From assembly GCF_947493765.1 (NCBI RefSeq), contig NZ_CANLSZ010000004.1, positions 302,461 through 366,460 on the forward strand: DNA of 64,000 nucleotides, in the 5' to 3' direction. Shown one piece after another: positions 45,938 to 57,971 of the stretch. The DNA comes from an uncultured Arthrobacter sp. Lineage in GTDB: Bacteria; Actinomycetota; Actinomycetes; Actinomycetales; Micrococcaceae. Each line of letters begins with the position of its first letter. The first letter of the stretch is position 1. The translations under genes were made by a program, and so were the position numbers. The notes below the pieces were generated by a model. The model was not told the DNA's origin and searched no databases. It saw nothing but the letters and a program-made list of their open reading frames with translations.

Positions 45938-47566
45938 TCAGTGGTGGAAGTGGCGTGCCCCGGTGAGGTACAGCGTCACTCCCGCCGCGTTCGCCGCGTC
46001 GATCACTTCCTGGTCGCGGACCGACCCGCCGGGCTGCACGACGGCGCGGACGCCGGCGTCGAGCAGGAGCTGCAGTCCGTCGGCGAAGGGGAAGAAGGCA
46101 TCGGAGGCGGCCACGGAGCCACGTGCCCGTTCGGAATCGGTGAGCGTGTTCGCCCGCTCGACGGCGAGGCGGCAGGAATCCACCCGGTTGACCTGTCCCA
46201 TGCCGATACCCACCGAGGCACCGTCGCGGGCGAGCAGGATGGCGTTGGACTTCACGGCGCGGCACGCCGTCCAGGCGAAGGCGAGATCCGCGAGCGTGGC
46301 GTGGTCGCCGGGCTCGCCGGCGGCCAGGGTCCAGGCGGAGGGGTCGTCGCCGTCGGCCTGCAGCGTGTCCGCGACCTGCATGAGCACTCCCCCGGACACC
46401 TGGCGGAACTCCACGGGGTTCCGGCCGTAGCCCTCGGGGAGGGTCAGCAGGCGGAGGTTCTTCTTCCGGCTCAGGATCTCCACGGCGTCGGCGGAGAACG
46501 ACGGCGCGATCACGACCTCCGTGAAGATGTCCTGCACCGTCTCGGCCATGCCGGCGGTAACCTCGCGATTGGCGGCGATCACCCCGCCGAACGCCGAGAC
46601 CGGGTCGCAGGCGTGCGCGCGGGCATGCGCGTCCGCGATCGGGTCCTGGGCGTCGGTCGAGCCGACGGCGACGCCGCACGGATTGGCGTGCTTGACGATC
46701 GCCACGGCCGGTTCGTCGAAGTCGAAGACCGCGCGGAGTGCCGCGTCGGCGTCCACCACGTTGTTGTAGCTCAGGGCCTTGCCGTGGAGCTGGTCCGCCT
46801 GGGCGATGCCCGGCACGGCCCCCTGCTCCACGTAGAGGGCCGCCTGCTGGTGCGGGTTCTCGCCGTACCGCAGCACCTCGGAGCGCTCCAGCGCCAGGCC
46901 CGCGTAGCCCGGCCACGTCACCTCACCGCTCGCGTCGTCCTCCACGTCGAGGTGCTCCGCCGTCCAGGCGGCCACCGCCGTGTCGTAGGCGGCGGTGTGC
47001 GCGAACGCGCGTGCCGCAAGCCGGCGTCGGGCCCCCAGCCCGAAGCCGCCCTCACCGGCTGCCGTGACCACGTCGCCGTACCGTGCCGGGTCGACCACGA
47101 CGGCGACGGACGGGTGGTTCTTCGCCGCGGAGCGGACCATCGCAGGTCCGCCGATGTCGATCTGCTCGACGACGGCGTCGGGCTGCGCACCCGAGCGCAC
47201 CGTCTCCACGAAGGGGTAGAGATTGACGACGACGAGATCGAACGCCTCGATGCCCAGGTCGGCGAGCTGCTCCACGTGCTCGGGACGCCGCCGATCGGCG
47301 AGGATGCCCGCGTGCACGCTCGGGTGCAGCGTCTTCACGCGCCCGTCGAGCGTCTCCTGGAAGCCGGTCACCTCGGACACCTCGGTCACAGGGACGCCTG
47401 CGGCGGCGATCCGCTGCGCCGTCGACCCGGTGGAGACGATGGACACACCGGCGCGGTGCAGGCCCTGCGCAAGCTCCTCCAGGCCGGTCTTGTCGAAGAC
47501 CGAGATCAGGGCTCGGCGGATGGGTACACGGTCCAGCTGGTCAGGGCTCACGCGGGTCTCCGTCAC
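45938..47566 (-). CDS. purH: Bifunctional AICAR transformylase/IMP cyclohydrolase
   Basis: Catalyses the last two steps of IMP synthesis (542 aa). The N-terminal cyclohydrolase domain has [15 protein letters not shown] and [16 protein letters not shown]. The C-terminal transformylase has [13 protein letters not shown] and the ending [10 protein letters not shown]. The start is GTG 47566 without a clear SD. A TAGACT about 20 nt upstream is a possible -10. It is separated from purN by about 4.7 kb of unrelated genes. Confidence 0.96.
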
Positions 47567-47637
47567 TAGGGCGTCGTGGGGGCTCGGACGAGTCTATCGG
47601 TGCGGGTGCCCTGCAGGGATTGCCGCCGTGCGAACGG

Positions 47638-48159
47638 CTACGTCGCCAGGTCAGGCTCCAGGTGGAGGTACCGGCCTCGGTAGAACAGCAGCGGATCACC
47701 GGAACGGTGGATCCCCAGTCCCTGCACCGACGCCACCACGATGGTGTGGTCGCCGCCGTCGTGCTCCGCCTGCAGGTCGCAGTCCAGCGAAGCGAGGATT
47801 CCCGGCAGGCGGGGGGACCCGTTCGGTGACACCGTCCACTCCACACCGGCGAACCGGTCCACACCGGACCGGGCGAAGGTCGTGGACAGCACCTCGTTGC
47901 CCGCGGACAGGATGTTGATGGTGAATCTGCCCACGCGCCTGATGCGCGGCCAGGAGGACGACGTCCGCGCCGGCGAGAACGTGACCAGCGGCGGATCCAG
48001 CGACAGCGAACTGAAGGACTGGCAGGTGAATCCGAGCGGCCCCTCCGCGCCCAGCGCGGTGATCACCGTAACACCGGTCCCGAAATGTCCCACCACGTCG
48101 CGGAACGTGCGCTGGTCGACGACGCCGGGACGGGCCTGTGGAACGGCTGATGTGGTCAT
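47638..48159 (-). CDS. Flavin reductase family protein (FMN supplier)
   Basis: Short NAD(P)H:FMN reductase-like protein (173 aa) of the split-barrel type. It shows VGHFGTGVTVITA, FTCQSFSSLSLDPPLVTFSPA, SSSWPRIR, and the C-terminal HHR-like region DPLLFYRGRYLHL. Such proteins feed reduced FMN to two-component monooxygenases, and the partner LLM enzyme is encoded just upstream. AAGGAC precedes ATG 48159. It should fall under the same riboswitch-controlled transcript. Confidence 0.9.
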   Translation of the reverse strand: MTTSAVPQARPGVVDQRTFRDVVGHFGTGVTVITALGAEGPLGFTCQSFSSLSLDPPLVTFSPARTSSSWPRIRRVGRFTINILSAGNEVLSTTFARSGVDRFAGVEWTVSPNGSPRLPGILASLDCDLQAEHDGGDHTIVVASVQGLGIHRSGDPLLFYRGRYLHLEPDLAT

Positions 48160-48199
48160 GACTCGTCCTTGCCCGACGTGCCGGGCGTCCCGGGTGCCA

Positions 48200-49615
48200 T
48201 CAGGACGCAACGGCATGGTCGCCGACCCGGAACCGGCTGCCCCTGTGGTCCGGGGGAAGCCTGTCCCCGGCCCCGAAGAGCTTGTTCCGCAGCGTCCCGG
48301 GCTGATACTCCTCCGGATAGGCGCCACGGCTGCGCAGCTCGGGCACCACGTACTCCACGATGTCCTCGAAGGTACCGGGCGTGATGGCGTACGCCAGATT
48401 GAAGCCGTCCACGTCCGTCTCCTCGACCCAGGAGATCAGTTCCTCCGCCACCTCGGCACCCGAGCCGACCAGCCGCGGACCGAGCCCGCCGATCCCCGCC
48501 CGCTCGACGATGTCGCGCAGCGTCCAGACATGGCCGTCGTCGTTGCTCTGCTGCAGGTTCGCGACGGCCGACTGGATGGCATTCGACTTCACGTCGCCGA
48601 TGGGCGCATCGAGGTCGTACTGCGAGAGGTCGATCCCCATCCACCCGGAGAGCAGCACCAGGGCACCCTCGTGGCTGGCGTACTCCTTGTAGTCCTCGTG
48701 CTTGGCCTCGGCCGCCTCGGGTGTGGCACCCGTGATCACCGTGAGCAGCGTGTAGATGCGGACCGAGTACCGGTCCCGGCCCTCGGCCTCGACGGCGTCG
48801 CGGATCCTCGCCACGGTGTCCCGCAGGATCGCCGTGGTGGGCGAGGCGACGAAGACGGCCTCGGCGTTCCCCGCGGCGAACTCGATTCCCCGGGACGAGG
48901 CACCCGCCTGGAAGATCACCGGCGTCCGCTGCGGCGACGGCTCGCTGAGGTGGATGCCGGGGACCTGGAAGAACCTGCCGTCGTGGGCGATGCCGTGGAC
49001 CTTCGAGGGATCCGTGAACACACCCGTCGACCGGTCGCGGACGACGGCGTCGTCCTCCCAGGACCCCTCCAGCAGCTTGTAGACCACCTCGAGGTACTCG
49101 TCCGCGTGGTCGTAGCGCTCGTCATGCTCGAGCTGGTCCTCGTTACCCATGTTCCGTGCTGCCGACGGCAGGTAGCCGGTCACCACGTTCCAGCCCACGC
49201 GACCATTGGTCAGGTGGTCGAGCGTGGAGAGCCGCCGCGCGAACGGATACGGATGCTCGTAGGCAGTGCCTGCGGTCACACCGAACCCGAGGTGCTCGGT
49301 CACCAGCGCCATGGCGGAGACGAGGAGGAACGGGTCGTTCACGGGCACCTGCGTACCCTGCCGCAGCGCCGCGTCGCTGGATCCGCCGTAGGTGTCGTAG
49401 GTGCCCAGCACGTCGGCGATGAAGAGGCCGTCGAAGAGGCCCTTCTCCAGGGTCCTGGCCAGGTCGGCCCAGTAGCGCAGGTCCTTGTACCGCCACGACT
49501 GGTCGTCGGGATGGCGCCAGAGTCCGGGCGACTGGTGGCCCACGCAGTTCATGTCGAAGGCGTTGAACCGGATGTGCCGACGCTGCTGTGGGCTGTCGGT
49601 GGACGCATGAGTCAT
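48200..49615 (-). CDS. LLM-class FMNH2-dependent monooxygenase (NtaA/SnaA/DszA family)
   Basis: Two-component flavin monooxygenase (471 aa) using FMNH2 from the reductase downstream. The family start is HIRFNAFDMNCVGHQSPGLW, followed by RVGWNVVTGYLPSAARN and VIFQAGASSRG. The NtaA/SnaA/DszA group oxidises chelators, sulfones, sulfonates or thioethers. A SAM riboswitch directly upstream indicates a sulfur-source role, so an organosulfur substrate is inferred. Start ATG 49615 has GGAGAGG at 9-nt spacing. An in-frame extension upstream is the riboswitch itself. Confidence 0.9.
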   Translation of the reverse strand: MTHASTDSPQQRRHIRFNAFDMNCVGHQSPGLWRHPDDQSWRYKDLRYWADLARTLEKGLFDGLFIADVLGTYDTYGGSSDAALRQGTQVPVNDPFLLVSAMALVTEHLGFGVTAGTAYEHPYPFARRLSTLDHLTNGRVGWNVVTGYLPSAARNMGNEDQLEHDERYDHADEYLEVVYKLLEGSWEDDAVVRDRSTGVFTDPSKVHGIAHDGRFFQVPGIHLSEPSPQRTPVIFQAGASSRGIEFAAGNAEAVFVASPTTAILRDTVARIRDAVEAEGRDRYSVRIYTLLTVITGATPEAAEAKHEDYKEYASHEGALVLLSGWMGIDLSQYDLDAPIGDVKSNAIQSAVANLQQSNDDGHVWTLRDIVERAGIGGLGPRLVGSGAEVAEELISWVEETDVDGFNLAYAITPGTFEDIVEYVVPELRSRGAYPEEYQPGTLRNKLFGAGDRLPPDHRGSRFRVGDHAVAS

Positions 49616-49629
49616 CAGGAAGATCCTCT

Positions 49630-49722
49630 CCATCGGTCCTGGCAGTAGCACCCTGAGCAGGATTTCTCCTGTCATGGTTGCTGCGGCGTCACAGAGCCAG
49701 ATCTCTCGGCCGCTCGGGATGG
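49630..49722 (-). ncRNA. SAM-I (S-box) riboswitch
   Basis: Minus-strand leader with the S-box architecture. P1 is CCATC/GATGG (49718-49722 with 49630-49634). P2a is GCGGC/GCCGC enclosing a kink-turn-like GAGAG/UGUGAC internal loop. Conserved AGCAACC follows. P3 is a CAGGA-GAAA-UCCUG hairpin. Conserved GGUGCUAC..GCC forms P4. The P2 loop (UCUGG, near 49697-49702) can pair with CCAGGA (49637-49642) as the family pseudoknot. It ends 15 nt before the LLM start codon, and the SD (49625-49631) shares two bases with P1. Confidence 0.9.
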
Positions 49723-49724
49723 TT

Positions 49725-49772
49725 ACGGACACAGTCCACACCACAGTGGGCCGCGCGTAAACAGGTGTCCGT
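49725..49772. promoter_or_regulatory. Spaced inverted repeat in the LLM/MFS divergent region
   Basis: ACGGACAC (49725-49732) and GTGTCCGT (49765-49772) form an 8-bp inverted repeat 32 bp apart in the 286-bp divergent region. It could be an operator for either gene. No regulator gene is adjacent. Confidence 0.3.
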
Positions 49773-49901
49773 CACATGTCGTAACGCGCCCATCCGGACA
49801 ACGTCGCTCCCCGGCGTCCTTCACGGTCCCTGCGGAAGGACGAAGGTGCAGCCGCGCAGCGGTACAGTTCTCGCAGGAACCCGCCCCTTCACGAAGGCAT
49901 C

Positions 49902-51254
49902 ATGAGCATCAATACTCAGCTACCCACAGGCGACCAGGTGGTCCAGGAGCTCCCCTGGCGCTGGAGGGTCCAGGGCAAGATCTTCCTCATCGGTGGTCTC
50001 GGCTTCATGTTCGACGCCTGGGACGTGACCCTCAACGCCTATCTGATCCCCCTGCTGATCGGGGACTGGGGCATCTCCCCCGGCCAGGCTGCCTGGATCG
50101 CGACGTCGAACCTGATCGGCATGGCCGTCGGCGCCTTCGTGTGGGGTTCCGTGGCGGATCTGATCGGGCGGAAGAAGGCGTTCACGCTCACGCTCCTCGT
50201 GTTCTCCGTCTTCACGGTCCTCGGCGCGTTCTCCCCGGACATCCTCTGGTTCTGCGCCTTCCGGTTCCTCGCCGGCTTCGGCCTCGGCGGCTGCATCCCG
50301 GTGGACTACGCGCTCGTGGGCGAGTTCACCCCCCGGCGCCAGCGCGGCCGCGTCCTCACCGCCATGGACGCGTGGTGGCCCATCGGCGCCTTCCTCTGCG
50401 GTGTGGTGACGACGGCGGTGGTCGGCACCACCGGCGACTGGCGGTACGCGATGCTCGTGATGGTCCTCCCCGCGCTGCTGGTGTTCTGGGTCCGCCGCGG
50501 CGTCCCGGAGTCCCCCCTCTTCCTCGTGCAGCGCGGCCGCCCGGAGGAGGCCCGCGCCGTCATCGACGAGCTCGTGGAGCGCACCGGCGGCGAGCAGCGG
50601 TCGTGGCGCCTGCCCGATCCGGAGCAGACACCCAAGCTCTCCCTCGGGAACGTCTCGAACCAGCTCACGGGACTGTGGCGCTACAACTGGCGCATCACCC
50701 TGACGGCCTGGAGCCTGTTCCTGACCATCCTCCTCGTGTACTACGGGGCGCTGACCTGGATGCCGCGGATCCTCATCAGTTCCGGGTACGCGCAGTCGGT
50801 CGCCTTCATCACCACCACCTTCATGACGGGCGTGGGTTTCCTCGGCGTCGTCGCGGCGGCCCTCCTCGTGGAACGCGTGGGGCGCAAGTGGCTCCTGGCC
50901 ATCACCGGGCCGGGCTCGGCCCTCCTCCTGGTCGCCTTCGCCCTGACCCTGGACCTGCCGATGGTCGCGACGGCGTGGCTGCTGGCCTTCGGCCTCGTGG
51001 TCCAGGTGGCCATCCCCGTGCTCTACACCTACGTCTCGGAGCTGTATCCCACCGAACTGCGGGCGAGCGGTTTCGGCTGGGCCTCGACCATCTCCCGCAT
51101 CGGGGCGGGTCTGGTCCCGCTGATCTTCGGCACCCTGCTCTGGCCCTACCTGGGTCTGCCGCTCACGTTCGCGATCATCGGCGGCCTGGTGCTCCTCGCC
51201 GTGCTCTTCATGGCCTTCAACGCCCCCGAGACGCGGCGCGCCAGACTGGACTGA
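49902..51254 (+). CDS. MFS transporter, aromatic acid/sugar-type proton symporter
   Basis: Twelve-helix transporter (450 aa). Helix 1 has GFMFDAWD, the double-Asp pattern of aromatic acid:H+ symporters. MFS motif A is GSVADLIGRKK (residues 82-92), and PESP follows helix 6. Divergent from the riboswitch-controlled monooxygenase, so it may import the sulfonated or aromatic substrate. ATG 49902 has GAAGG; TACAGT at 49863-49868 is a possible -10. Confidence 0.88.
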   Translation: MSINTQLPTGDQVVQELPWRWRVQGKIFLIGGLGFMFDAWDVTLNAYLIPLLIGDWGISPGQAAWIATSNLIGMAVGAFVWGSVADLIGRKKAFTLTLLVFSVFTVLGAFSPDILWFCAFRFLAGFGLGGCIPVDYALVGEFTPRRQRGRVLTAMDAWWPIGAFLCGVVTTAVVGTTGDWRYAMLVMVLPALLVFWVRRGVPESPLFLVQRGRPEEARAVIDELVERTGGEQRSWRLPDPEQTPKLSLGNVSNQLTGLWRYNWRITLTAWSLFLTILLVYYGALTWMPRILISSGYAQSVAFITTTFMTGVGFLGVVAAALLVERVGRKWLLAITGPGSALLLVAFALTLDLPMVATAWLLAFGLVVQVAIPVLYTYVSELYPTELRASGFGWASTISRIGAGLVPLIFGTLLWPYLGLPLTFAIIGGLVLLAVLFMAFNAPETRRARLD

Positions 51255-55543: not shown

Positions 55544-56179
55544 ATGACAGCAACCTCCGCCCTGGCCACGGCCGACTGGCGCCGGCGCGTCTTCGGTCTC
55601 TACGCCGACGTCCGCGCATGCGCTGTCTCCGAGTCGCCCGAGACCGCCCACGGACTGTGGCGGCGGGGACGCGACGAGCTGTTCCGCGACCATCCGGCGT
55701 CAGCGCTGGACGCCGGTGTCCGGTCCGCCTTCACGGGTCTCGCCGTGGCGCCCTACGACCCCGCCTTCCGCTTCGAGGCACTCGTGGACCCCGAGGGTGA
55801 GGGCGAGGTCATGGAGGTGCCCACCGGCACGGACGGCGTCGTCCCGTTCCGCCGGCTCGGCTCCGTCATGCTGCAGGGACTGGGCACGCTGGGCCTGTGG
55901 GAGCTGGGCTCCTACGGCGGCGGCCTGTTCCTCCCCCTGCACGATCGGACCGCGGGGAGGCCCGGCGGGTCGTACGGCGGCGGGCGCTACGTCCTGGACA
56001 CCGTCAAGGGCGCGCACCTGGGTGAGGGGCGGGCCCCCGGCAGCCTCGTGGTCGACCTGAACTTCGCGTACAACCCGTCCTGCGCCTACGACGAGGAGTG
56101 GGCGTGCCCGCTGCCCGGACCGGCCAATCGGCTCGCGGGCGAGGTCCCGGTCGGCGAGCTGTACCGGGACTACCGCTAG
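55544..56179 (+). CDS. DUF1684 domain protein
   Basis: A 211-aa cytoplasmic protein of unknown function. The family hallmark VDLNFAYNPSCAYDEEWACPLP, followed by NRLAGEVPVGEL, is present near the C-terminus. YGGGRYVLDTVKGA is also typical. Tryptophan near residue 40 begins the conserved N-terminal part. Probably leaderless. No functional link to its neighbours is evident. Confidence 0.88.
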   Translation: MTATSALATADWRRRVFGLYADVRACAVSESPETAHGLWRRGRDELFRDHPASALDAGVRSAFTGLAVAPYDPAFRFEALVDPEGEGEVMEVPTGTDGVVPFRRLGSVMLQGLGTLGLWELGSYGGGLFLPLHDRTAGRPGGSYGGGRYVLDTVKGAHLGEGRAPGSLVVDLNFAYNPSCAYDEEWACPLPGPANRLAGEVPVGELYRDYR

Positions 56180-56285
56180 CGGACCCCGCACCACCCGTCC
56201 GGAAGCGGTCCGGGACCCGTGCGGACCACGCCGTCGCCCCTCCACGATGACGCCGAATCGTTGGCCCGGAATGCTGGACTGCTCC

Positions 56286-57971
56286 ATGCCGGGACGGTAT
56301 GGTGCCCCCTCGCACATCGGTGACCGGGCCAGGCTCTATCATGGGAAGCACGCACCCATACTCCAGGAGGTTCCGATCACAGACACGGCTGCCCAACACG
56401 ACATCTACTTCGGAGCACCCGAGCCGGAGAATGAAGCCGAGATCCTCGCCTCGGCGTCTCGCGCGGCGGTCGCCCGGTTCGAAGGCCGCTCCGACATCAC
56501 GACGGTCAAGCGCCGCTTCACCCTGATCAACCAGGACCGCACCCCGCAGCAGGCCATGGTGGAGGATCTGCTGTTCATCCGTTCCGCCCTGGACACGGCA
56601 GGCATCGACTTCCTGCTCGTGCGCGGGAACGACCAGCGTCCGGTGATCGCCGTCGACCTCGCCAACCGCGAGAGATTGCGAGCCGCCCTGGTGGAGGCCT
56701 GCCGCGACGAACCCTTCTACTCCCGCACGGTCGACACGAAGCGCCGCACCACGCTCCTGGTCAGTGACGGGCGGCTGTCCAGCAGTGAGAAGGCGAGGAT
56801 CTTCCGGCTCTTCCGACCGCGCATCGAACCGCTCGGCGGCCTCGCCTACGGGCCCTCGGCCGGCGTGCAGATCGAGCTGTGGACCCTCGGCGACACAGCG
56901 ATCGAACTCCCGGTGGAGAACTCGCTGACCCGGCGCACCCTGCCCGCGGCCGAGTTCGTGCGCGGCGAGGTGGTGCGGCACGGCCTCAGCTGGCCCACGA
57001 TCGACAACATGTTCGCCGACCACGCGACCGACATCGACTTCGACATCGACCTGGTCTACTCCTGGGTGGACGGCAGCAGCCCCGAGTACCGGGCCGCCCG
57101 CGCCGCCCGCATGCAGGGCGTGACGGTGGGCGAGGGCGACGACCACGAGGCGCGCTACCGGCAGATCGACGAGCTCAAGTACACCCTGCGCTCCGTCTAC
57201 ATGTTCGCGCCCTGGGTGCGCCGCATCTTCATCGCGACCGACTCGGAACGCCCCGCCTGGCTGGCCGAGCACCCGTCCGTGACCTTCGTGCGCTCGGAGG
57301 AGCACTTCCTGGACACCTCCGTGCTGCCGACCCACAACTCGCAGGCCGTCGAGGCGCAACTGCAGCACATCCCCGGACTCTCCGAGCACTTCCTCTACTC
57401 CAACGACGACATGTTCTTCGGCCGGCCGGTCGCACCGGACCTCTTCTTCTCCCCCGGGGGCATCACCAAGTTCATCGAGGCCGACACGCGGATCGGTCTC
57501 GGGGAGAACGACGCCGAGCGCAGCGGCTTCGAGAACGCCGCACGCGTCAACCGGCGCCTGCTGCACGAGCGGTTCGGCCGCATCACCACGCGGCACCTCG
57601 AGCACGCGGTGACGCCCCTGCGCAGGAGTGTCCTGCTCGAGATGGAGGCGGAGTTCGCCGCCGAGTTCGCGGCGACGGCGGCGTCCCGCTTCCGCGCCAA
57701 GGACAACATCTCCGTGACCAACTCGCTGTACCACTACTACGCGCTCCTCACCGGCCGGGCCGTCACGCAGGAGTCGGCGCGCGTGAAGTACGTGGACACC
57801 ACGGCGCGTTCGGAGCTGAAGAGCCTGAACAAGATGCTCGACAAGCGGAACCGGGATCTGTTCTGCCTCAACGACGGCAGCACCTCCGACATCCCGGCCG
57901 ACGAGCGGGCCCAGCTGGTCACGGCGTTCCTCGAGAAGTACTTCCCCGTCAAGGCGCCCTGGGAGGTCTGA
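56286..57971 (+). CDS. Stealth family capsular/cell-wall glycan phosphotransferase
   Basis: Predicted sugar-1-phosphate transferase (561 aa from ATG 56286) of the Stealth family (CpsY/SacB-like), joining sugars through phosphodiester bonds in surface glycans. CR1 is DLVYSWVDGSSPEYR and CR2 is DELKYTLRSVYMFAPWVRRIF. CR3 includes FLYSNDDMFFGRPV and CR4 FCLNDGS near the C-terminus. The start is unclear. ATGs at 56247, 56271 and 56286 lack an SD, whereas AGGAGG (56365-56370) sits 5 nt before an in-frame ATC at 56376, with TATCAT (56337-56342) as possible -10. The true protein may be 531 aa. Confidence 0.85.
   Translation: MPGRYGAPSHIGDRARLYHGKHAPILQEVPITDTAAQHDIYFGAPEPENEAEILASASRAAVARFEGRSDITTVKRRFTLINQDRTPQQAMVEDLLFIRSALDTAGIDFLLVRGNDQRPVIAVDLANRERLRAALVEACRDEPFYSRTVDTKRRTTLLVSDGRLSSSEKARIFRLFRPRIEPLGGLAYGPSAGVQIELWTLGDTAIELPVENSLTRRTLPAAEFVRGEVVRHGLSWPTIDNMFADHATDIDFDIDLVYSWVDGSSPEYRAARAARMQGVTVGEGDDHEARYRQIDELKYTLRSVYMFAPWVRRIFIATDSERPAWLAEHPSVTFVRSEEHFLDTSVLPTHNSQAVEAQLQHIPGLSEHFLYSNDDMFFGRPVAPDLFFSPGGITKFIEADTRIGLGENDAERSGFENAARVNRRLLHERFGRITTRHLEHAVTPLRRSVLLEMEAEFAAEFAATAASRFRAKDNISVTNSLYHYYALLTGRAVTQESARVKYVDTTARSELKSLNKMLDKRNRDLFCLNDGSTSDIPADERAQLVTAFLEKYFPVKAPWEV

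Follow-up and report, generated by a model that had tools for sequence, protein, structure and literature searches.

A SAM-I riboswitch without P4 lies directly before a DmoA-related monooxygenase gene of Arthrobacter and probably controls its translation

Why would a gene for an FMN-dependent monooxygenase carry a SAM riboswitch in its leader, and at which step of expression would the riboswitch act? The question is raised by the minus strand of the window, that is, the whole stretch of 64,000 nucleotides of Arthrobacter DNA analysed in the present study. Considering the results of the comparisons described below, we propose that a SAM-I riboswitch lacking P4 would turn off the translation of an organosulfur FMN-dependent monooxygenase and its flavin reductase when SAM is plentiful, a reading to which we assign a probability of about 0.78.

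When the window was searched with all 4227 Rfam families at their curated cut-offs, the matches were tRNA and RF00162 (SAM, S-box), the latter being the sole riboswitch. Using cmscan, the aptamer was placed at 49725–49627 on the minus strand (99 nt; 52.8 bits against a gathering cut-off of 44.4 bits; E 2.7e-9, computed for 64 kb and both strands). A sequence-only reading of this DNA had claimed a SAM-I riboswitch upstream of the monooxygenase, and the Infernal covariance check gave that claim a significant match; the interval it had named, 49615–49722, comprises nearly the whole aptamer together with the ribosome site. The aptamer is the better of two RF00162 matches in its own genome, the second scoring 35.9 bits, below the cut-off. 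The parts of the aptamer, all on the minus strand, were located by position as that reading had described them, with the exception of P4. P1 is formed by CCAUC (49718–49722), identical in all 32 aligned homologues, and GAUGG (49630–49634), which overlaps the ribosome site. The P2 arm (49683–49713) pairs GCGGC at 49713–49709 with GCCGC at 49687–49683, agrees at the sequence level with the kink-turn consensus in the Rfam alignment, and carries in its loop CUGGC (49700–49696), for which five pairs are possible with the pseudoknot partner GCCAG (49639–49643). The ligand-core motif GCAACC (49676–49681) also occurs in 77 others of 88 RF00162 matches of the genus, and the distal hairpin of P3, CAGGA-GAAA-UCCUG with its GNRA cap (49658–49671), is present in the minimum-energy structure. 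GCAACC and GGUGC in P3 and GAG after P1, which we take to be the SAM-contacting positions, are all present. The window aptamer is predicted to bind SAM.

The structure was further compared across 32 homologues picked for diversity from the 88 genus matches and from matches in L047, L108, L109, L111 and L112. Under the aptamer structure, 98.2% of cells pair, versus 22–55% when the structure is slid by 1–3 columns. Two-sided changes were found at four pairs overall, including three of the five pairs of P2; 18 of the 20 cells with such changes come from one nine-member group, in which one P3 core pair is absent, and they may thus reflect one event per pair. In the pseudoknot, 97.5% of cells are paired, one of the five pairs changing from G-C to C-G in nine of the 32 rows and one further pair being broken in four. 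Since P1 is invariant in the set, it receives no covariation support. A coding extension starting from GTG 49744, which would place the aptamer inside an open frame, was considered and rejected; similarity to members of the enzyme family begins downstream of ATG 49615, indicating that the aptamer stretch is a leader.

The P4 proposed earlier did not stand. The claimed element, GGUGCUAC (49652–49645, minus strand), consists of the 3′ side of P3 together with the joining region, GGUGC being the 3′ strand of P3 in the window aptamer. No P4 hairpin was found in the 12 nt between GGUGCU and the P1 strand, which fold into nothing, and the alignment of the window to RF00162 skips about 16 model positions. 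P4 belongs to the Rfam consensus and is peripheral to the ligand core. The stretch from GGTGCT to P1 measures 11–12 nt in all 94 elements of the lineage and in 88 of 88 genus matches. For the phylum, RF00162 matched in 103 of 198 genomes, and 30 loci of the best matches were taken, six of which were left unparsed (five with an incomplete locus and one with the core GCAGCC). In these other actinobacteria the same stretch is 23–52 nt in 23 of the 24 parsed loci, the remaining value of 7 being a mis-parse; because best-scoring RF00162 matches favour elements with P4, this comparison is silent on the rarity of P4-less ones. Among the matches listed from the openly licensed literature, we found no paper on a P4-less SAM-I riboswitch. 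The window leader thus shares with the SAM-I (S-box) family RF00162 its core sequence, P1, P2, P3, the P2-loop pseudoknot and a likely sulfur gene downstream, but differs in lacking P4, in having the ribosome site set against P1, and in being without a separate expression platform.

Only 11 nt separate the end of the aptamer from the start codon, ATG 49615, leaving no space for a separate platform. The purine-rich ribosome-site candidate GGAGAGGA (49624–49631, minus strand) has its first GG inside P1, and its GAGG ends 9 nt ahead of the ATG. This short distance and the overlap with P1 suggest that control is most likely translational, P1 acting as a lock on translation being the simplest account. 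According to this scenario, plentiful SAM would bind the aptamer and stabilise P1, whose 3′ strand, reaching into the ribosome site 9–12 nt before the start codon, would keep ribosomes off; when SAM is scarce, P1 would open, and the monooxygenase and flavin reductase would be made. In 64 of the 88 genus matches, an ORF of 150 or more codons begins at most 20 nt from the P1 strand, and many of these SAM-I leaders read GATGGAGG, a few bases, ATG. Folding energies lend less to this picture. The energy of the leader is no better than that of shuffles (z 0.03). In the absence of ligand, forced formation of P1 has a cost of 0.6 kcal/mol, and of the ribosome site no more than the first GG becomes paired by it, the remainder relying on a small local hairpin, so that energy folding is no demonstration of ribosome-site occlusion.

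The same riboswitch might instead act on transcription, the SAM-bound aptamer causing premature termination of the mRNA, as Bacillus S-boxes do. PMC8603990 names transcription termination as the mechanism of SAM-I, 24 of the 88 genus matches fail the 20-nt rule (ORF start 21–150 nt away in 20, none in four), and a spacer of roughly 75–95 nt lies between SAM-I and dmoA in L108, L111 and L112. The 11-nt gap in the window argues against it, as does the lack of a terminator-like site in 47500–50000, although only 0.5 would be expected there by chance; we consider this mode unlikely here. Rho-dependent ending after failed translation would be a further, conceivable transcriptional route. No sigma-70-like promoter was found at the locus, which counts against the main reading. 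A CTTTCGTTGG-like or TTTTCGTTGG element follows the SAM-I aptamer in L108, L014, L015, L016 and L113, and where the gene starts far off such an element is perhaps a different expression platform. Translational repression has a precedent in the met operon of Xanthomonas campestris, whose SAM-I riboswitch represses mainly at translation (PMC7270179). The X. campestris leader differs from that of the window in its separate multi-hairpin platform and length of about 200 nt, compared with the 11 nt left here, and it senses uncharged initiator tRNA.

The gene behind the leader (48200–49615, minus strand) encodes a 471-aa FMN-dependent monooxygenase of the DmoA/NtaA family (TIGR03860, 561.2 bits, cut-off 279.7). 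Compared with solved structures, the enzyme scored 578 bits with DmoA (PDB 6AK1, a dimethyl-sulfide monooxygenase), 480 with LadA, 364 with the hexachlorobenzene enzyme, 271 with the DszA type, 246 with YtnJ and 221 with the NtaA type. The sequence-only reading had called it NtaA/SnaA/DszA-type; among solved structures its nearest relative is DmoA, and naming the enzyme after DszA or NtaA was rejected given its far higher score with DmoA. The flavin reductase partner also named there is present directly downstream: a 173-aa protein (47638–48159, minus strand; PF01613, 141.9 bits, cut-off 27) that starts 40 nt after the monooxygenase and is closest to the HsaB and FerA models, both below cut-off. 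A 59% relative of this reductase stands divergent to dmoA in G018/L034 and in G036/L170, and in G003 a relative of 57–59% follows two genes read as PLP sulfhydrylase types, near a SAM-IV element.

The resemblance to DmoA suggests dimethyl sulfide or a related thioether as the substrate. Of the 20 DmoA binding residues listed in PMC9259527, 18 are kept in the window enzyme, S137 being replaced by G and G231 by S. In a quick tree of 101 rows rooted on LadA, which carries a long-branch warning, the sister of DmoA is a genus paralog (L113; 58%, support 96) rather than the window clade. The window enzyme is like DmoA 6AK1 in its 56% identity and in 18 of these residues, but it is actinobacterial and under predicted SAM-riboswitch control, and the genus paralog groups closer to DmoA. 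The enzyme could alternatively be a monooxygenase of long-chain alkanes or of another non-sulfur compound, its SAM-I leader having arrived with an insertion and having no role in sulfur supply. The alkane enzyme LadA is indeed the second-best solved relative, and the identities are close to equal (window and DmoA 56%, window and LadA 54%, LadA and DmoA 53%); however, LadA keeps only 13 of the same 20 binding residues, three of the misses being alignment gaps.

An insertion did take place, in that the upstream region, riboswitch, monooxygenase and reductase form a cassette on the minus strand at 47610–49823 (ends approximate), as judged by similarity to G011, which breaks off near 49824 and returns near 47609. 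The downstream neighbour is purH (45938–47566, minus strand; PRK00881 and TIGR00355 over cut-off), and on the other side, outside the cassette, lies a divergent MFS transporter gene (49902–51254, plus strand). The transporter occupies the same site beside purH in all five relatives examined and was therefore rejected as a part of the system. The gap between the two genes is 111 nt in G004, 127 nt in G022 and 326 nt in G009. G011 and G010, the closest relatives by purH (94% and 92%), have no dmoA match and instead about 1.25 kb in the gap. An open frame of 336 or 350 codons lies there, and the one in G011 matches REase_MTES_1575 weakly (28.5 bits, cut-off 38.2). With another gene at the site in both, the cassette was rejected as ancestral, and the presence of other cargo in relatives fits the non-sulfur alternative. 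The G+C content of the cassette, 67.8% versus 69.5% for the window, gives no sign of a distant origin. As a separate observation, the MFS–purH gap (window 47610–49823, L185 10653–11925, L186 4532–5779) resembles an insertion site, and in L185 and L186 it is occupied by a nuclease-like gene with short repeats similar to GAGACCGCAGAAATGAC on both sides. Elsewhere in the window, on the plus strand, are genes for a DUF1684 protein (55544–56179, 114 bits) and a Stealth-family protein (56247–57971, CR1–CR4 Pfam matches over cut-off).

SAM control of the orthologs proved recurrent. The contig coordinates of riboswitch matches are shared between handles of the genus and the genomes behind Arthrobacter agilis 4041 and Arthrobacter sp. 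Br18, H5, H41, RIT-PI-e and MSA 4-2, which places the window genome in that group. In 27 of 38 congeneric genomes there is a match with E no greater than 1e-60, and 20 of these matches are full-length close orthologs (80–100% identity); a contig-edge fragment (75%) was excluded, and the rest are paralogs of 43–56%. With elements counted up to about 200 nt ahead of the gene and on its own strand, SAM-IV precedes 16 of the 20 close orthologs, SAM-I precedes one (the window), and neither precedes three (G018, G032 and G036). SAM-IV (RF00634) has a GCAACC ... GGUGC core similar to that of the window SAM-I, but its scaffold differs, and the window leader is caught by SAM-I models and not by SAM-IV ones: RF00634 has no match at the leader, occurring in the own genome at two other places only, and the local SAM-IV model R2 found nothing in the window.

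The survey was widened to 99 sources, including the best 80 of 582 confirmed dmoA loci of named genomes, which were scanned with two local models built from the window lineage; 94 have a dmoA ortholog and five loci do not. Among the 94, SAM-IV is upstream in 21 and SAM-I directly upstream in four (the window, L108, L111 and L112), a further Arthrobacter group thus also having SAM-I ahead of dmoA; in L109, SAM-I is upstream with one SfnB-like gene between, and neither class is at dmoA in 68. All 65 rows outside Micrococcaceae had neither class at dmoA by these local models, built as they were from the window lineage; with the three close orthologs that have neither, these rows weigh against the main reading. 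The Rfam models were run genome-wide, with stricter filters, on 41 of the 80 named genomes, of which those of Microbacteriaceae had no RF00162 match; one of them, G073, has an RF00634 match over the cut-off, which the local scan does not put at dmoA.

A careful tree was built from 40 rows, 29 being Micrococcaceae and 11 being taken from the 65 others, and it unites the Micrococcaceae in a single clade (100/98). Three leader labels require four changes, two of them for SAM-I, suggesting that each class was placed ahead of dmoA at least once. Forcing the five SAM-I rows together was not rejected (AU p 0.212), so the tree leaves room for a single origin of SAM-I before dmoA. Replacement of SAM-I by SAM-IV, or the reverse, would be the bolder reading, and independent gains of the two classes are possible. 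The window and A. agilis L035 share a GAGGATCTT ... ATG likeness just ahead of the start codon; at nine letters it is weak, and it hints at a joint between leader and gene at the ribosome site. Among the matches listed from the openly licensed literature, there was no paper on SAM-I or SAM-IV ahead of DmoA-like genes. In two Arthrobacter genomes, clusters hold both classes: about 17 kb at G077:C37:224094-241327 carry five SAM-I elements and a single SAM-IV, and about 13 kb at G078:C1:111729-124651 carry four SAM-I elements and a single SAM-IV; the clusters contain dmoA and SfnB-like genes, and L111 also has an MFS transporter and a dmoA paralog.

Elsewhere in the genus, SAM-I elements stand before known sulfur genes. 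The second SAM-I of the own genome heads an ABC operon with an SsuB/SsuC-like ATPase and permease, which come closest to nitrate/sulfonate models but stay below their cut-offs. One SAM-IV lies 82 nt ahead of metY, identified from a 137-residue piece, which is followed by metX (457 bits, cut-off 331), and the other heads an amino-acid-type ABC operon. Targets of the 88 genus SAM-I matches, for which one representative of each cluster was scanned on rough ORF calls with some wrong frames, include SfnG (626 bits, cut-off 383), MetY (602 bits, cut-off 495), metF-metE (MetF 229 bits, below the cut-off of 294; MetE named by reading), SsuBC-like ABC operons, a MetE-like protein (PF01717) and oligopeptide-type binding proteins. 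The SfnG leaders resemble the window in that SAM-I precedes an organosulfur FMN monooxygenase, but SfnG, a dimethyl-sulfone enzyme, belongs to another LLM subfamily than the window enzyme. Near dmoA itself, SfnB-like genes occur in L108, L109, L111 and L112 (47–62% to the L111 protein, which scores 293 bits, below the SfnB cut-off of 431), and MetN- and MetQ-like genes come next on the same strand in eight of the 21 SAM-IV dmoA loci (in L035, MetN 259 bits, below the cut-off of 500, and NlpA lipoprotein 152 bits). The suggestion that the pair serves sulfur acquisition and is off with SAM gained from the SAM-IV elements before 16 of 20 orthologs, the SAM-I elements in the further Arthrobacter group and the genus SAM-I elements on sulfur genes. 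The SAM-IV elements before most close orthologs and these SfnB-like and MetN/MetQ-like neighbours, together with the binding residues, also make the non-sulfur alternative unlikely.

A variant stands apart among the genus elements. In 10 of the 88 matches (L137, L139, L140, L141, L142, L144, L149, L156, L158 and L168, the 97-nt class), GCUUCC replaces the ligand-core GCAACC. P2 and the pseudoknot still pair via two-sided changes in the group, nine of the 10 having been aligned. Eight of the 10 are clustered with a 412-aa MetE-like protein (PF01717, 37.9 bits), L191–L194 likewise, and the exact pattern occurs in 10 of 295 genomes of the family and two of 32 genera. These elements may be a form of SAM-I that recognises a different ligand; one SAM-I variant, altered in J1/2 and in the internal loop of P3, is known to bind spermidine (PMC10853860).

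We infer that the DmoA-related enzyme would oxidise an organosulfur compound to a thiol or oxidised sulfur, and that the sulfur released would pass into methionine and on to SAM. Our best guess for the substrate is either a thioether amino acid or a small thioether, for example dimethyl sulfide; a volatile substrate is disfavoured by the MetN/MetQ-like importers next to SAM-IV orthologs. The product may be methanethiol or a sulfoxide. Methanethiol could be used by MetY without further conversion. The reaction could well be S-oxidation (DMS to DMSO to the sulfone) rather than C–S cleavage to methanethiol, which we regard as the less probable but a serious alternative. The genus has SfnG under SAM-I, and two-component monooxygenases of Acinetobacter baylyi convert DMS to DMSO and DMSO2, which earlier-reported enzymes then take over (PMC13352529). 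A legend of the same paper gives the DmoA product as DMSO, instead of the methanethiol and formaldehyde reported for DmoA in PMC9259527, which speak for cleavage. PMC9259527 also states that the cloned DmoA proteins of the study gave no methanethiol and that DMS breakdown has been observed in Arthrobacter, the responsible gene being without a comprehensive study. Against S-oxidation, no sfnG follows the SAM-I ABC operon of the own genome, which has no third SAM-I. A more far-reaching scenario is that this Arthrobacter group uses a SAM-I without P4 or platform, with P1 as the ribosome-site lock, that SAM-I and SAM-IV are interchangeable before a dimethyl-sulfide/thioether monooxygenase gene, and that its methanethiol enters methionine via SAM-IV-controlled MetY, closing a loop onto SAM. 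We hold this joint scenario to be doubtful, since separate gains are equally possible and a genus paralog is closer to DmoA.

Beyond the earlier account of this locus, the present study adds that the enzyme resembles DmoA, that P4 is missing, that control is likely translational, that SAM-IV precedes orthologs and that the cassette is an insertion. If control is translational, this SAM-I, 99 nt long and with only 11 nt between its end and the start codon, would be a very compact switch of its kind. As a natural case in which orthologous genes follow two different riboswitch classes that share a ligand, it also allows one to ask what besides the ligand selects the class. Furthermore, because the riboswitch is tied to a DmoA-type enzyme, the substrate may be sought by a clear growth test.
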